From the NCBI GenBank assembly GCA_026985995.1, contig JALSPJ010000186.1, positions 1 to 32,325 of the forward strand: DNA of 32,325 nucleotides, written 5' to 3'. A model generated the notes under the pieces. That model searched no databases, had not been told where the DNA came from, and saw nothing but the letters and a program-made list of their open reading frames with translations. How positions within the stretch are numbered: the stretch's first letter is position 1; every line of letters begins with the position of its first letter. Source of the DNA: Anaerolineales bacterium. Lineage in GTDB: Bacteria > Chloroflexota > Anaerolineae > Anaerolineales > DRMV01. The translations under genes and the position numbers were made by a program. This document shows, piece by piece, positions 19,901 to 27,684 of this stretch.

Positions 19901-19960
19901 CGCGCCGAATTTCGCGAAAGTTGAGACATGACATTCGTCACCTGGCTCAAAAAAACAATC

Positions 19961-19996
19961 TTGACTATTCTTGCTAAAGGTGGTCAAGAAAGTCAA
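19961..19996 (+). promoter_or_regulatory. Candidate operator/promoter upstream of the Rrf2 regulator
   Basis: TTGACTATTCTTG (19961-19973) and CAAGAAAGTCAA (19985-19996): imperfect inverted repeat with 11-nt spacer; TTGACT could also act as -35. Confidence 0.5.
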
Positions 19997-20023
19997 CTTT
20001 TTGCCACGCGGGCGAGGGCGGTG

Positions 20024-20473
20024 ATGCGCTATTGGATCAACCGACGCACGGACTACGCCATTCGGGTGGTATTGGGCCTGGCCAAGCACCCCCCGGGGAC
20101 GCGGGTTTCGGCCCAGCAGCTCAGCCAGGAAATGCTCATCCCGCTCTCGCTGCTTTACAGTTTGCTTAAGGAACTCAGTCGGGCCCAGCTGGTGCGCACT
20201 TACCCGGGGCCCAAAGGCGGCCTGGAACTGGCCCGCCCGGCGCAAGACATCACCCTGCGTGATGTCATCGAGGCCATGGACCGGCTGCCCCGGGTTTCGG
20301 AGTGCATTGACTTGCCGGATTCGTGCCCCTTTTCTACGGCCTGCCCGGTGCGCCGGCGGTGGGCCCGATTGCAGCGCCTGATTTTGAAAGAGCTGGAAAG
20401 CACCACTTTCGCGGATTTGGCCGCCGAGGCCCAGGGGGTGTCGGTGGCCTTGAAGGCGGACCAGGAACCATGA
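20024..20473 (+). CDS. Rrf2-family Fe-S transcriptional regulator
   Basis: MRYWINRRTDYAIRVVLGLAKHPPGTRVSAQQLSQEMLIPLSLLYSLLKELSRAQLVRTYPGPKGGLELARPAQDITLRDVIEA; cysteine triad ECIDLPDSCPFSTACPVRRRW (CX6CX5C). Start at 20024 (or GTG 20021), not 19928. Confidence 0.92.
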   Translation: MRYWINRRTDYAIRVVLGLAKHPPGTRVSAQQLSQEMLIPLSLLYSLLKELSRAQLVRTYPGPKGGLELARPAQDITLRDVIEAMDRLPRVSECIDLPDSCPFSTACPVRRRWARLQRLILKELESTTFADLAAEAQGVSVALKADQEP

Positions 20474-21147
20474 AGGCCTATCGTTGGGTGGTTCGCGGGG
20501 TTTACGGCTTTTTCGGCACGGTGTTCGTGGCCGTGGTGGCGTTCAAGGTGTTTCAGCCTGTGCAGGTGCTGCCCCGGGTGCGCCTGGGCCCAGGTTTCAT
20601 CTTGGTGGACCAAAACGGCCAACAGCTGACCAACGAGGACCTGCGGGGCAAAGTGGTACTGTACGCCTTCCTCTACACCCGCTGCCCGGGCGATTGCTAC
20701 GGCATCGTGCCCACGCTGCAGCGGGCGCAGGCCGAGGGGCCGGCCATCATGGGCGACATTCCCTTTCGCATCGTGGCCATTTCGCTGGACCCGGCCCACG
20801 ACACCCCCGAAGTGCTACGGGCCTATGCCCGGCAGGTCGGCGCGGACCCCGCGGTGTGGACCTTCGCCACCCACCCCGACCCCAAACGGCTGAAGCTGAT
20901 TGTGGGCGCGGGGTTCGGCGAGTATTACGAACCGCAACCCGACGGCAGTGTGCGCTTCGACCCGCGCTACATCCTCATCGACGGCTGGGGCATCGTGCGC
21001 GGGGAATACAAGTACGAGACTTTGGCGTCGACCGAGGAGCGCATTCTGCGCCACTTGGGCGTGCTGGCCGAGGAAATTCGCAACAGCCAGGGCTCGGCCA
21101 AACTGGCCTATGAGGCCGCGCATTTCTTCCTTTGTTACGCACCTTGA
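20470..21147 (+). CDS. SCO1/SenC-family protein (copy 1, divergent)
   Basis: N-terminal TM; GQQLTNEDLRGKVVLYAFLYTRCPGDCYGIVPTLQ (CX3C); RIVAISLDPAHDTPEVLRAYA. ATG overlaps the Rrf2 stop (ATGA). Confidence 0.88.
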   Translation: MKAYRWVVRGVYGFFGTVFVAVVAFKVFQPVQVLPRVRLGPGFILVDQNGQQLTNEDLRGKVVLYAFLYTRCPGDCYGIVPTLQRAQAEGPAIMGDIPFRIVAISLDPAHDTPEVLRAYARQVGADPAVWTFATHPDPKRLKLIVGAGFGEYYEPQPDGSVRFDPRYILIDGWGIVRGEYKYETLASTEERILRHLGVLAEEIRNSQGSAKLAYEAAHFFLCYAP

Positions 21148-21168
21148 TGCATGTGGAGGTTGGCTTCG

Positions 21169-21768
21169 ATGGCGTATAAAAAGCCCGTATTGGTCCTGGT
21201 AGGCGCGTTGCTCTTGGTTGCCGTTGGCTGGTGGGGGTGGAACCGGTTTCGGCCTTACGCGTTTCACGGCACGGTGCTGCAATCGACCGAGCCGGCGCCC
21301 GATTTCACCCTCATGTCGGCCGACGGCCCGGTGAGCCTGCGGGACTTTCGGGGCAAGGTGGTCATGCTCTACTTCGGCTACACCTTCTGCCCCGATGTGT
21401 GCCCCACCACCCTGTTCGAGGTGCAGCGGGCCATGGAGCTGTTGGGCGACGACGCGGACCAGGTGCAATTCATCATGGTTTCGGTGGACCCGGCTCGGGA
21501 TACGCCCGAACGCCTCAAGGAATATGTACAGTACTTCGACCCCCGTTTCATCGGTGTGACGGGCAGCGAAGATGAGATTGCCGAGGTGGCCACGCAATAC
21601 GGCATTTATTACCAGAAACACGAGGGTACCGTGGCCACCGGGTATCTTGTCGACCACACGGCCAGCATCACCGTGGTCGACAAGAAAGGGTATGTCAAGC
21701 TCATCTTCCCCTATGGCACCCCGGCCGAAGATATGGCCGCGGACCTCAAGTATCTCATTTCCCATTGA
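21169..21768 (+). CDS. SCO1/SenC copper chaperone (copy 2, canonical)
   Basis: APDFTLMSADGPVSLRDFRGKVVMLYFGYTFCPDVCPTTLFEVQ...FIMVSVDPARDTPERLKEY...GYLVDHTASITVVD; CX3C plus His. Confidence 0.94.
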   Translation: MAYKKPVLVLVGALLLVAVGWWGWNRFRPYAFHGTVLQSTEPAPDFTLMSADGPVSLRDFRGKVVMLYFGYTFCPDVCPTTLFEVQRAMELLGDDADQVQFIMVSVDPARDTPERLKEYVQYFDPRFIGVTGSEDEIAEVATQYGIYYQKHEGTVATGYLVDHTASITVVDKKGYVKLIFPYGTPAEDMAADLKYLISH

Positions 21769-21787: not shown

Positions 21788-22240
21788 ATGAAGCGCTTCA
21801 TTCGCTTACTGGCGTTGATGTCGGCCGTCGTGGTTGCGTTGGCCGCGTGCCAAAAGGCCGCCGGGCCCCAAATCCAGGTGGAAGACGCCTGGGGCCGGCC
21901 CTCGCCCAAGGTGGCTACCGCGGGCGCGTTCTACATGACCCTGCGCAACACGGGCAATGAGGACGACGCCCTGATTGGCGCTTCGTCCGACGCCTGCGGC
22001 ACGGTGGAATTGCACGAATCTTTCAAGACCGCCGAAGGCGCCATGGGGATGCGCCCGGTGGAGGGCGGGAAAATCGTCATCCCGGCCGGGCAGACCGTGG
22101 AGCTCAAGATGGGCGGGTTGCACATCATGTGCATCGATAAAAAGGTCGACTTCACCCCCGGCACCAAGGTCAAGCTCGTCTTGCACTTCGAGAAAAGCGG
22201 CGACATGCCCATCGAGGTCGAGATTCGCCAGCCCAAGTAG
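21788..22240 (+). CDS. PCuAC-type periplasmic copper chaperone lipoprotein
   Basis: Lipobox VALAAC; VEDAWGRPSPKVATAGAFYMTLRNTG; ELHESFKTAEGAMGMRPVEGGKIVIPAGQTVELKMGGLHIMCI (H...M...HxM). Confidence 0.93.
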   Translation: MKRFIRLLALMSAVVVALAACQKAAGPQIQVEDAWGRPSPKVATAGAFYMTLRNTGNEDDALIGASSDACGTVELHESFKTAEGAMGMRPVEGGKIVIPAGQTVELKMGGLHIMCIDKKVDFTPGTKVKLVLHFEKSGDMPIEVEIRQPK

Positions 22241-22479: not shown

Positions 22480-22980
22480 ATGAGTTCCTTGCATATCGAC
22501 AAGCACGAAAAGCGCTGGATTACCATCAGCATCGCCTTGTTGGCCGCGTTTGCGGTGTTGATTGGCGTGGCCGGGTTCGCGCTGGGCGTGCAGGTGCCTA
22601 CGCTGGACCAGAAAATCGACCCCACCAAATTGGACCAGGACCCGGTGTGGTCCAACCCGGGTGTGCGGGAGCTGGTGCCCGGCAAGAAGTATGAAGTCTA
22701 TCTGATTGCCCAAACCTGGCAGTTCGTCCCCCGGGAAATTGTGGTGCCCGCCGGCGCGAAGGTGACCTTCTATGTCACCAGCCGCGACATTCAGCACGGC
22801 TTCAAAGTGCTCAACACGGACCTGAATGTGCAGGTCATTCCGGGCTATGTGGGCAAGCTGAGCTACACTTTCGATGAGCCCGGCGAGTACAAGTTCATCT
22901 GTACGGAATATTGTGGCTTGGGTCACGCGGCCATGTTCGGCGTGATCAAAGTCGTGCCCCCCGAAGAATACGGCAAATGA
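22480..22980 (+). CDS. cbaB: ba3-type cytochrome c oxidase subunit II (CuA)
   Basis: N-terminal TM, QTWQFVPREIVVPAGAKVTFYVTSRDIQHGF, CuA motif CTEYCGLGHAAM. Confidence 0.95.
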   Translation: MSSLHIDKHEKRWITISIALLAAFAVLIGVAGFALGVQVPTLDQKIDPTKLDQDPVWSNPGVRELVPGKKYEVYLIAQTWQFVPREIVVPAGAKVTFYVTSRDIQHGFKVLNTDLNVQVIPGYVGKLSYTFDEPGEYKFICTEYCGLGHAAMFGVIKVVPPEEYGK

Positions 22981-22992
22981 GGGAGGTCGGCC

Positions 22993-24651
22993 ATGGCGAA
23001 TGAATATACCCTGACCCGCGCGGAAAAGCGTTTCATCGGCTGGCACATTTTCGTGGCCGTGGCCGCGTTGGCCATCGGCAGCTTCTTCGGCCCCATGCAG
23101 GCCTTCAACTACGCCGGCTGGAACTTTTACCCGCAGCTGAAGAAGCTGCACATCGCCCAGTCCTATTACCAGGGCCTCACCCTGCACGGCGTGCTCAATG
23201 CGGTGGTGTGGACCACCTTCTTCATCCTGGGCTTTCTCACCTTCAACATGATTTACGGCCTCAAGCGGCCCCTCAAATACCCCAAGCTCAACGCCTTCGG
23301 CTTTTGGATGATGGTGGTGGGGCTGCTGCTGGCCGCGTTCTACATCCTGGCCAATCAGGCCAGCGTGCTCTACACTTTCTACCCGCCTATGAAGGCCCCC
23401 TGGCCTTTCTACCTGGGCCTGGTGCTGCTGGTGGTGGGCAGCTGGATTGAGGGCTACGGCTTTTACTTCACCTTGCACCAGTGGAAGAAGGACAACCCCG
23501 GCGTGCGCACGCCCTTCATCGCCTTCGCCAGTGTGGCCACCATGGTGCTGTGGCAACTGGCGACCTTGGGCGTGGCCATCGAAGCCCTGTTCATGCTGCT
23601 GCCCTGGTCCGCGGGGCTGGTGAAGGGCATCGACATCCAGCTGGCCCGCACTTTCTTCTGGTGGTTCGGCCATCCCCTGGTCTACTTCTGGCTGCTGCCG
23701 GCTTATATCTCCTGGTACGGCTACCTGCCGCGGCAGGCCGGCGGCAAGCTGTTCAGCGATACCATGGCCCGCTTAGCCTTCTGGCTGTTCATCTTGCTCT
23801 CGGTGCCCGTGGGCTTCCACCACCAGTTCGTGGACCCCGGCGTCGCGCCCGGCTGGAAGTACATCCACGCGCTGCTCACCCTGTCGGTGGTCATCCCCTC
23901 GCTCATGACCCTGTTCACCGTGGTGGCTTCGCTGGAATATGCCGGGCGTCAGCGAGGTGGCAAGGGCCTCATGGGCTGGCTGGCCGCGCTGCCGTGGGAT
24001 GACCCCATCGTGGCCTCGCAGCTGCTGGCCGGCATCCTGTTCATCTTCGGCGGATTCGGTGGCATCGTCAACGCGTCCTACAACACCAACCTCATCCTGC
24101 ACAACACCGCCTGGGTGCCCGGGCACTTCCACCTCACCGTGTCCACCGCGGTGACCCTGACCTTCATGGGCATCTCCTTCTGGCTGGTGCCCTACCTCAC
24201 GGGCCGGGAACTGTGCTGCCGCAAGGCCGCGCTGGTGCAGGTGTATCTGTGGTTCATCGGCATGGCCATCTTCTCCCAGGCCATGCACTCGCTGGGCCTG
24301 CTGGGCGCGCCCCGGCGCACGCCCTTGGGCGAAGCGCCCTACATCCCGCCCGAATGGAGTGGCCTGCTGCTGCGGGTGGGTATCGGCGGCATCATCCTCC
24401 TCGTCGCGGTCTACATGTACATCTGGATTATGGCCCACACCGCGTTCTTCGCCAAGAAGGCCGCCAAAGAGGTGGAAATCCAGGTGGCCGAGGCCATGAC
24501 CGATGTGCAGGCCGTGCCCGAATGGCTGGACGCCTGGAAGCCGTGGCTGGTGGGCGCGGTGGCGCTGTTGGTCATCGCCTACACGCCGGTGCTCATCGAC
24601 CTGATTTCGGGCATGATGCCTGTGGCCGGGCCGAACATCAAATTGTGGTAA
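22993..24651 (+). CDS. cbaA: ba3-type cytochrome c oxidase subunit I (B-family haem-copper oxidase)
   Basis: LTLHGVLNAVVWTTFFI, WWFGHPLVYFWLLPAYISWY (His-Tyr), GFHHQFVDPGV, NTAWVPGHFHLTVSTAVTLTFMG. Confidence 0.95.
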   Translation: MANEYTLTRAEKRFIGWHIFVAVAALAIGSFFGPMQAFNYAGWNFYPQLKKLHIAQSYYQGLTLHGVLNAVVWTTFFILGFLTFNMIYGLKRPLKYPKLNAFGFWMMVVGLLLAAFYILANQASVLYTFYPPMKAPWPFYLGLVLLVVGSWIEGYGFYFTLHQWKKDNPGVRTPFIAFASVATMVLWQLATLGVAIEALFMLLPWSAGLVKGIDIQLARTFFWWFGHPLVYFWLLPAYISWYGYLPRQAGGKLFSDTMARLAFWLFILLSVPVGFHHQFVDPGVAPGWKYIHALLTLSVVIPSLMTLFTVVASLEYAGRQRGGKGLMGWLAALPWDDPIVASQLLAGILFIFGGFGGIVNASYNTNLILHNTAWVPGHFHLTVSTAVTLTFMGISFWLVPYLTGRELCCRKAALVQVYLWFIGMAIFSQAMHSLGLLGAPRRTPLGEAPYIPPEWSGLLLRVGIGGIILLVAVYMYIWIMAHTAFFAKKAAKEVEIQVAEAMTDVQAVPEWLDAWKPWLVGAVALLVIAYTPVLIDLISGMMPVAGPNIKLW

Positions 24652-24765: not shown

Positions 24766-27111
24766 ATGGCCGCACAACAGCTGACGCCTGAGCTACCGTC
24801 CCAAACCCGTTCGATGTGGAACCGTTTGGCCGCGCGCCTGGACCGGTGGACCACCCGCCTGGAAGCCCCCTGGGCCCACTGGGTGCGCGACCCTCGCTAC
24901 AACCCCTTCTACCACACCGGCACCCTGGCCCTGTGGTCCCTGTTCTTGTTGGCCCTCACCGGGTTGTATCTCACCCTGTTCTATCACTTCGGCTTTCAAG
25001 ACACCTACGACTCCATTGCCGTCATCCACAGCAACATCGTCGGCCGCATCATGCGCTCGGTGCACCGCTATGCCAGCGATTTCTTCCTCTTGTTTGCCTT
25101 GCTGCACGCGTGGCGCATGGCGGTGCAAAACCGGGTGCGCGGCCCCCGCTGGCTGGCCTGGGTCACCGGTGTGGCGCTGGTGCTCGTCGCGCTCATCGTG
25201 GGCATCACCGGCTATTGGATGTTGGCCGACGACCGGGCCCAATGGTTGCACCAGGCTCTGGTGCAGGGGTGGAAGGGCTCCGCGAACGGCCAGGCGCGCA
25301 TCGTGCGCTGGCTGGTTCCCCACCCGGGCAATACGGGCTGGGTCTACCTGGTGACTTTGTTCTTCATCCATGTGGGCCTGGCCGTGCTCATGGGCCTGTT
25401 CTACTGGTGGCACATCCTGCGCCTCAACCAGCGCCGCTGGTTCCCCCCGCGCTATTGGCTGCTGGCCCTGACCGGGGCCTGGGTGCTGCTGGGGGTGGCG
25501 TGGCCCGCGGGGCTGCGCCCGCCGTGGGATTTCACCCACTGGCCCGAGCAGGTGCCTTTGGACCTGTGGTATCTGGCCCTGCTGCCCGCCTGGCTGAAAT
25601 GGGGCGGCTGGGTCGCGTGGGGCCTGGCCGGGCTCACTTTCGCCCTGTGGGCCGCGTGGCCGTGGGTGTGGCGCGCACCGCAGGCCGAACCCGTGCGCCT
25701 GAACCAGGACGCCTGCATTGGCTGCACCCTGTGCGCCAAGGATTGCCCCTACCGGGCCCTGGAAATGGTGCCCCGGGAAAATGGCAAAGGCCCCAAACTG
25801 GTGGCCCAACTGCACCCCGAATTGTGCGTGGGCTGCGGCATTTGCGTGGGCAGCTGCCCCACCGACGCGCTCACCTTAGACCACCCCACCCTGGACGAAC
25901 TGCGGGCCCGGGTGCGCCGCGCCGCGCAGCCCGAAAACGGCGTGGCCCCCCGAGTCACCTTCGTGTGCCATCGCCATGTGCTGGCCAATGCCGATGTGCT
26001 GGCCCAACCGCACACGGCAGAAAGCCCCCAGGGGCCGCGGCCGGTGCATGTGGTCGCGGTGCCCTGCGTGGGCGATTTGCACCCCGATACCGTGGCCCTG
26101 GCCTGGCAGGCCGGCGCGGCCGAGGTGCAAATCATCGGCTGCCCGCCCGACGATTGCGTCAACCGCTGGGGCAACACCTGGCTGCACGACCGTCTGGCCC
26201 GGCAGCGCAAACCCTGGCTGCGGGTCAAGTGGAAGGCCGCGGCCCTGCGCGAGGACTGGATTGCCCCCGCGGATTTGCCCGCGGCCCTGACCGCGCCTTT
26301 CGCGGCTCCCGAACCCGCGTCCATGCATCCGCCCGCGGAGCAGAGCTGGAGCGACATTTTGCGCCATCCGGCCGCCTGGCGGGCCGCGGTGGGGTTGTTG
26401 GCCCTCGCGCTGCTGGTGGTGGCCCTCACCCGGTGGCCCTATCGGGGCCCGGCCTGGGCGCAAAAGGCCACGCTGGAAGTGGCCTTCACCCACCGTTTGG
26501 GGTTGGACTTCGAAGACCCGAATGTGGTAAAATCAACTGTTGGCTCCGAAACGGTGCCCAAAGGTCAGGCCACGCTGCGAGTGTATCAGGATGGGCAGGT
26601 GGTGTGGGAAGCCACCCACCCGGCCCAAGAGGGCGTGGTCGTCTTTTTTGCCCAATGGCTGGCCGAGCCGGGGACGCACCGGGTGACCATCACCTTAGAG
26701 GAGCCCCAACAGCGCTACATTTTGTTCGACGGTGAAGTGCGCCTGAGCCCGCGCCAGATTCGCCGCTGGCAGTTCCACGATTTGCGCACCCACGGCGACC
26801 CTGACATGGGGCGGCGCTTGTTCCTGGAAGAAGTGCCCGGCGTCAACGCCGGTTGTCGGTTGTGTCACAGTTTGGAACCCGGCGTGCGACTGGTCGGCCC
26901 TTCCCTGTACGACATCGGCAAGGTGGCCGGCCAGCGGGTGCCCGGCATGAGCGCGGAGGAATATCTGTACCAATCCATCGTCGACCCCGACGCGTATGTC
27001 GTCCCGGGCTACCCCGCGGGCACCATGCCCCCCGATGCCCGGGAGCGCCTGACCGAAGAGCAAATTCAAGACCTGGTCGCCTTTTTGCTTACGCTCACGG
27101 GGGAGGAATGA
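24766..27111 (+). CDS. Fusion: diheme cytochrome b, 2x[4Fe-4S] ferredoxin, MvhD/FrhD-like hydrogenase-delta domain, TM, extracytoplasmic beta domain, cytochrome c
   Basis: HRYASDFFLLFALLH and HVGLAVLMGLFYWWH (two HX13H pairs); CIGCTLCAKDCP and CVGCGICVGSCP; VTFVCHRH...VVAVPCVGDL...GCPPDDCVNRWGN; TM AAVGLLALALLVVALTRW; CRLCH haem c. Start ATG 24766 or GTG 24733. Confidence 0.9.
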   Translation: MAAQQLTPELPSQTRSMWNRLAARLDRWTTRLEAPWAHWVRDPRYNPFYHTGTLALWSLFLLALTGLYLTLFYHFGFQDTYDSIAVIHSNIVGRIMRSVHRYASDFFLLFALLHAWRMAVQNRVRGPRWLAWVTGVALVLVALIVGITGYWMLADDRAQWLHQALVQGWKGSANGQARIVRWLVPHPGNTGWVYLVTLFFIHVGLAVLMGLFYWWHILRLNQRRWFPPRYWLLALTGAWVLLGVAWPAGLRPPWDFTHWPEQVPLDLWYLALLPAWLKWGGWVAWGLAGLTFALWAAWPWVWRAPQAEPVRLNQDACIGCTLCAKDCPYRALEMVPRENGKGPKLVAQLHPELCVGCGICVGSCPTDALTLDHPTLDELRARVRRAAQPENGVAPRVTFVCHRHVLANADVLAQPHTAESPQGPRPVHVVAVPCVGDLHPDTVALAWQAGAAEVQIIGCPPDDCVNRWGNTWLHDRLARQRKPWLRVKWKAAALREDWIAPADLPAALTAPFAAPEPASMHPPAEQSWSDILRHPAAWRAAVGLLALALLVVALTRWPYRGPAWAQKATLEVAFTHRLGLDFEDPNVVKSTVGSETVPKGQATLRVYQDGQVVWEATHPAQEGVVVFFAQWLAEPGTHRVTITLEEPQQRYILFDGEVRLSPRQIRRWQFHDLRTHGDPDMGRRLFLEEVPGVNAGCRLCHSLEPGVRLVGPSLYDIGKVAGQRVPGMSAEEYLYQSIVDPDAYVVPGYPAGTMPPDARERLTEEQIQDLVAFLLTLTGEE

Positions 27112-27156: not shown

Positions 27157-27684
27157 ATGTTCCGCAAGAAGAGCCTGTGGCTCGTGCTCGTTGTGTTGGC
27201 GTTGGTCTTTGCCCTGGCCGCGTGCGGCGGCGGTGCGCAGGAGGCCCCCGCGGCCGAGCAGCCCGCGCAGCAGGAAGAAGCCGCGCCCGCGACCCAGGCC
27301 CCGGCCGAGGAAAAGGCCGAGGCCACCGAAGAGGCCATGCCCGAAGCCACCGAAGCCGCGGCCGAAGAGGGCGGTGAGCAGGACCTGGTGGCCATGGGGA
27401 AGGAGCTGTTTAACCAGAACCCCCTGGGCACCAACGCCGGCTGTGTGACCTGCCACAGCCTGGAGCCCGGCGTGCAGCTGGTGGGCCCCTCCCTGGCGGG
27501 CATTGCCACCACCGCGGCCCAGCGGGTCGAGGGCATGAGCGCGGAGGAATACATCCGCCAGTCCATCACCGACCCCACGGCCTACACGGTGGAAGGCTTC
27601 CCCGAGGGCTTGATGCCGAGCTACAGCGACCTGTCGCCCGAGCAAATCGACGCGTTGGTGGCCTTTTTGATGACGCTGAAATAA
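27157..27684 (+). CDS. Monohaem cytochrome c lipoprotein with Ala/Glu/Pro-rich linker
   Basis: Lipobox FALAAC; AEE/ATEEA-rich spacer; NAGCVTCHSLEPGVQLVGPSLAGI...LMPSYSDLSPEQIDALVAFLMTLK. Confidence 0.93.
   Translation: MFRKKSLWLVLVVLALVFALAACGGGAQEAPAAEQPAQQEEAAPATQAPAEEKAEATEEAMPEATEAAAEEGGEQDLVAMGKELFNQNPLGTNAGCVTCHSLEPGVQLVGPSLAGIATTAAQRVEGMSAEEYIRQSITDPTAYTVEGFPEGLMPSYSDLSPEQIDALVAFLMTLK

Follow-up and report, generated by a model that had tools for sequence, protein, structure and literature searches.

A heme-b/iron-sulfur fusion protein beside B-type heme-copper reductases in Anaerolineae, a candidate transmembrane electron wire

The window analyzed here (the whole stretch of 32,325 nucleotides from an Anaerolineales bacterium) contains a gene cluster that leads from a putative regulator through copper-handling proteins to a two-subunit oxidase, a long fusion ORF and a small cytochrome c; features are summarized in Table 1. 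The oxidase had been taken for a ba3 enzyme in the first-pass annotation, and this holds, as the best solved match of its subunit I is Thermus ba3 (1ehk, E about 1e-148; 4e-149) and the active-site Tyr is present. No gene for a cytoplasmic electron donor was found near the fusion. Genes for a Rieske protein or subunit IV are likewise lacking from the window cluster and from most relatives' clusters; one exception is L056 (954-5801), where a fusion-family ORF adjoins a gene set for cytochrome b6, subunit IV and a Rieske-like protein.

Table 1. Positions of the fusion ORF, its modules and the neighboring genes in the window, in order along the sequence.
Feature	Positions	Strand	Basis or size
Rrf2-family regulator	19928..20473	+	PF02082
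SCO1/SenC protein, second copy	20467..21147	+	PF02630
SCO1/SenC protein	21151..21768	+	PF02630
PCu(A)C copper chaperone	21788..22240	+	PF04314
Oxidase subunit II, CuA motif CTEYCGLGHAAM	22480..22980	+	PF00116
B-type (ba3) oxidase subunit I, active site GHPLVY (Tyr: O2 reductase)	22993..24651	+	PF00115
Whole fusion ORF: cytochrome b - 2x[4Fe-4S] - FlpD - TM - beta-sandwich - cytochrome c	24766..27111	+	781 aa
Cytochrome b N-terminal domain (TM1-4), heme-b His pairs H100/H114 and H202/H216	24901..25428	+	PF00033, fold match
TM5-TM6, probable helices E-F of cytochrome b; D-x-[FW]-Y replaces PEWY	25438..25671	+	alignment, hydropathy, Foldseek
Two CX2CX2CX3C [4Fe-4S] motifs, predicted cytoplasmic	25714..25875	+	Fer4_7/Fer4
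FlpD/MvhD-like domain: C401-x-R-H404, C434, C459, C464	25954..26274	+	PF02662, alignment with canonical FlpD
TM7, taking the chain to the outside	26371..26427	+	hydropathy; helix 535-555 in model
Beta-sandwich (Ig-like) domain, predicted outside	26449..26802	+	model pLDDT 93
Monoheme cytochrome c domain, CXXCH at 26854-26868	26806..27096	+	PF00034
Monoheme cytochrome c, lipoprotein-like signal (LAAC), paralog of the fused c domain	27157..27684	+	

The fusion ORF has an ATG start and no internal stop, and all Pfam matches of its product exceed the curated cut-offs: Cytochrome_B (residues 46-221, E 3e-11), Fer4_7 (residues 317-368) plus two Fer4 matches, FlpD (residues 397-503, E 6.7e-12; 45.9 bits vs. 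a cut-off of 22.3) and Cytochrom_C (residues 695-777). These profiles confirm the four redox modules that the first-pass annotation had read in a single ORF, including the MvhD-like domain, and both HX13H heme-b pairs, both CX2CX2CX3C motifs (C317-C327 and C354-C364) and the CXXCH (residues 697-701) are present as it had stated. In all, up to six metal centers that carry electrons could be accommodated in the protein. A frameshift or assembly join was rejected as the origin of the fusion, since the four-module chain is unbroken in more than a dozen other genomes at 38-79% identity. The fused heme c domain and the free cytochrome c encoded next to it share 62% identity.

The Fer4 and FlpD modules follow each other in the order of the HdrA2 C-terminus, which this stretch resembles (E 9e-24). 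The fusion differs from MvhD/FlpD in being joined to a cytochrome b and in its first motif, C-x-R-H404, in which a His takes the place of the second CxxC cysteine of canonical FlpD; the remaining FlpD cysteines are kept. Because CNWC stands in canonical FlpD from this order at the place where FlpD-keeping family members have C-x-R-H, the cluster of this domain, if present, may have a His ligand in those members. The fusion carries the only FlpD of the host genome, which is 94% complete, in agreement with the earlier remark that no Hdr gene was visible; this FlpD search thus gave no second copy that might pair with a hydrogenase or Hdr.

By hydropathy and charge, the Fe-S part is preceded by six transmembrane segments and followed by one, and basic loops fall on the side predicted to be cytoplasmic. 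The Fe-S and FlpD modules are accordingly predicted to be inside and heme c outside, the arrangement originally proposed. The AlphaFold model (pLDDT 76, pTM 0.68) aligns by Foldseek to the cytochrome b of bc1/b6f complexes over ~290-325 columns, more than the four helices of b6, and shares with it two bis-His heme-b sites. It differs in having no Rieske protein or subunit IV, in carrying Fe-S/FlpD modules where the C-terminal part would be, and in lacking the Glu of PEWY, the aligned loop reading D-x-[FW]-Y instead. Between TM7 and the c domain, the model also contains a beta-sandwich (residues 562-679) that was absent from the first-pass annotation and that folds well alone. It corresponds to the end of the relatives that lack heme c (hereafter tailless) and, in Defluviimonas, to a gene of its own (E 2.3e-13 against a tailless form). 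It matches neither Pfam FixG_C nor any solved structure at E<0.01, on which grounds homology with the outer domain of CcoG was rejected.

With the fusion protein (P0001) as query, homologs were found in 21 of the 61 genomes nearest the host (host counted), and a search with an alignment found them in 13 of the 400 Chloroflexota genomes covered. Conservation was counted over 38 aligned members, almost all of which belong to the host's order (Anaerolineales-like). The four heme-b His are kept wherever the sequence covers them, and all eight [4Fe-4S] Cys are present in 36 of the 38 members; one Cys is missing from the other two, which are closely related. The FlpD ligands are gone across one whole clade, tailless forms often lack the FlpD cysteines, and the heme c tail is confined to one part of the tree. 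Judged by this alignment, the family can do without heme c and the FlpD cluster but not without hemes b and the two [4Fe-4S] motifs. The tailless forms have no conserved Cys, His or Met outside the cofactor ligands, and therefore no obvious copper site.

Presence of the fusion closely follows that of a B-type COX1. Both occur in 20 of the 61 genomes, the fusion only in one, COX1 only in one and neither in 39 (Fisher p 7e-14, uncorrected for relatedness and thus overstated, because related genomes are not independent). COX1 and COX2 adjoin the fusion at most loci; no oxidase lies beside the family member within the stretch read at two loci (L038, L055), and genome G005 keeps both fusion and COX1, though on different contigs. 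The type of neighbor can be read from its active site, as eNOR enzymes are marked by Gln instead of the cross-linking Tyr and by a cupredoxin subunit II (PMC8756737). All 13 c-tailed forms with a readable neighbor motif lie beside O2 reductases (Tyr), and each of the 15 loci whose active site could be read as Gln (eNOR-type) carries a tailless form. Two tailless members (f11 genomes) adjoin a Tyr enzyme, and there an unfused cytochrome c gene lies next to the oxidase; the resulting table of tail and active site (13/2/0/15) gives p 1.8e-6, again uncorrected for relatedness. The eNOR-type neighbors have GH[PS]AQQ and a subunit II with the CuA motif (cupredoxin), and the usual locus order is COX2-COX1-(DsbD_2)-Cu-ATPase-fusion.

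Several loci have further features. Genome G014 encodes both forms (L039 and L049), the c-tailed one beside a ba3 oxidase and the tailless one beside an eNOR-type enzyme. Two loci (L047, 4770-6350; L048, 11142-12593) contain a second COX1 homolog beside the eNOR, with GMGHSxQY; an HHxxxD pair near CuB was not found in it, and it is possibly a CuB-less heme-copper paralog. A gene for a cytochrome b561 (Ni_hydr_CYTB) lies between COX1 and the fusion at L043 (4288-4830).

Outside Chloroflexota, the single match came from an alphaproteobacterial plasmid of Defluviimonas (L125, NZ_CP156080.1, 7816-14355), in a search whose single-protein query reaches close relatives only. Its eNOR-like operon encodes a subunit II, COX1 (GHSSQQ), CyoE, SCO, a cytochrome b-Fer4 protein with a degenerate FlpD (31% identical), the TM and beta-domain as a gene of their own, and a hemerythrin. 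Since these parts are individual genes in this operon, the Anaerolineae protein joins parts that are separate elsewhere.

The first-pass annotation had also proposed that the fusion could be a Rieske-free stand-in for a bc complex, and had advised checking whether the host lacks Rieske/bc1 and ACIII genes. It does not: the host genome encodes, at C218, a Rieske protein, cytochrome b6 and a subunit-IV/cytochrome-c protein, as well as an NrfD protein of the ACIII type, whose relative in G005 lies in an ACIII-like cluster. The host also has a second, caa3-like oxidase subunit II. A canonical cytochrome b and/or NrfD was found in every carrier except two MAGs that are 67-72% complete. Together with the missing PEWY Glu in the case of the stand-in, these genes led us to reject bc replacement as the sole role.

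The near-invariance of the heme-b His and the eight [4Fe-4S] Cys argues that the inner clusters matter and that the fusion is not merely a quinol dehydrogenase. With the inner Fe-S motifs and the heme-b pair as the conserved core, passage of electrons between the cytoplasm and the outer face is the simplest reading. Our best explanation, at a probability of roughly 0.45, is that the fusion acts as a dedicated transmembrane electron wire for CuA-containing B/E-type heme-copper reductases, which retains the wire toward cytochrome c and the ba3 oxidase that had been suggested at the outset. In slightly broader terms, the fusion probably feeds the paired O2 or NO reductases, or readies them for work, bypassing the usual bc complex. 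The modules, the conserved cofactor motifs, the synteny and the co-occurrence come directly from the sequences, and topology and fold are predicted; for cofactor occupancy, donor, direction of flow and steady turnover as opposed to activation, we infer the following. A cytoplasmic reductant, perhaps ferredoxin or an NAD(P)H-linked flavoprotein, would reduce FlpD and/or the two [4Fe-4S] clusters at the inner face, and electrons would then cross to the outer face via the heme pair of the cytochrome-b domain. In the c-tailed form the next stop would be the tethered heme c, which together with the sister cytochrome c would reduce CuA of the ba3 oxidase. The net role would be an extra, oxidase-specific input that bypasses the quinone and the bc/ACIII complexes, and its use may be the fast removal of O2, or of NO in the eNOR relatives.

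The presence of a c domain and of its free twin favors supply of electrons for turnover, as does the position in the oxidase operon. Several points stand against the wire. Tailless relatives on the eNOR side have no heme c and many have no FlpD cysteines, so the common function cannot need either. The neighbors of tailless forms handle metal (Cu-ATPase, DsbD_2, SCO), which would suit assembly equally well. Inside-to-outside electron flow would partly dissipate the membrane potential, and the absence of a nearby donor gene and the bc and/or NrfD complexes that hosts already own also count against it. A somewhat less probable alternative is that the fusion is an activation or assembly reductase resembling NosR or CcoG, in which cytoplasmic electrons reduce Cu(II), disulfides or the CuA/CuB site during maturation or re-activation; the heme c tail would then be a local relay and turnover would not be fed. 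Most family members lie among copper-delivery genes, as in the window with its two SCO1 proteins and PCu(A)C, between COX1 and the tailless forms (Cu-ATPase and DsbD_2), and in the Defluviimonas operon (CyoE and SCO). The dispensability of the FlpD ligands and heme c in the family also fits, as does the finding of neither a Fer4_5 (CcoG/NosR-type) nor a FixG_C protein in the host genome. One parallel is CcoG (RdxA/FixG), a product of ccoGHIS that is described as a membrane cupric reductase with two [4Fe-4S] clusters and an Ig-like domain at its periplasmic C-terminus (PMC7558416). The fusion is likewise a membrane protein with two [4Fe-4S] motifs and an outer beta-domain, and its eNOR relatives share the reductase cluster with Cu-ATPase; it differs in having no Fer4_5/FixG_C homology, in having heme b instead and, often, heme c. 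Against activation are the lack of an obvious copper site in the tailless alignment, the failure of the beta-domain to match FixG_C or a solved fold, and the kinship of the c domain with the neighboring free cytochrome c, which points to CuA reduction.

Two readings that start from quinol are less probable still. In one, which corresponds to the bc stand-in, menaquinol would be oxidized at the cytochrome-b domain and its electrons passed to heme c, with the inner clusters as a side branch. The cytochrome-b fold, including probable helices E-F, and a cytochrome c acceptor beside the oxidase are consistent with this, but the loss of the PEWY Glu, a cluster devoid of Rieske and subunit IV, and the bc and/or NrfD of carriers make it improbable, and it leaves the near-invariant inner [4Fe-4S] motifs unexplained. 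In the other, which we consider very improbable, quinol would drive bifurcation at the cytochrome-b domain, one electron going to heme c and O2 and the other through Fe-S/FlpD to a low-potential cytoplasmic acceptor. A single chain does hold all the centers, and the resemblance of Fer4+FlpD to the C-terminus of HdrA2 recalls a component of bifurcating systems; however, there is no flavin domain and no Rieske protein, the PEWY Glu is lost, and relatives have lost the FlpD ligands.

NosR is a membrane Fe-S protein with a flavin domain and a Fer4_5 core that serves the CuA-containing reductase NosZ. The fusion shares the membrane Fe-S character and the CuA-reductase partner, but the flavin domain and Fer4_5 core were not found in it. 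In the literature searched, which left subscription papers mostly outside, the only trace of the fusion architecture is RME88945.1 in Table A3 of PMC8756737, one ORF listed with the domains cytochrome b6 (PRK03735), DMSOR_beta-like and FlpD, along with a cytochrome c (C1) homolog. It is a bare table row, given without discussion, function or gene context. No treatment of the physiological electron supply of eNOR was found in the same literature.

In the textbook view, terminal oxidases are supplied by quinol, or by a bc complex via cytochrome c. We tentatively suggest, with a little less assurance than for the wire itself, that the fusion represents a previously undescribed multi-phylum family of heme-b/Fe-S wires that would serve ba3 and eNOR enzymes as their own low-potential input (or as a reductive activator), so that a cytoplasmic reductant could drive O2 or NO reduction without quinone or bc, with modules split in a proteobacterial eNOR-like operon and joined in one chain in Anaerolineae. 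If true, an inner-face Fe-S entry common to an O2 reductase and eNOR would be a different way of powering or activating these enzymes. With it, eNOR would gain a partner gene that can be tested, and a natural wiring diagram could be read from the fused and split versions.
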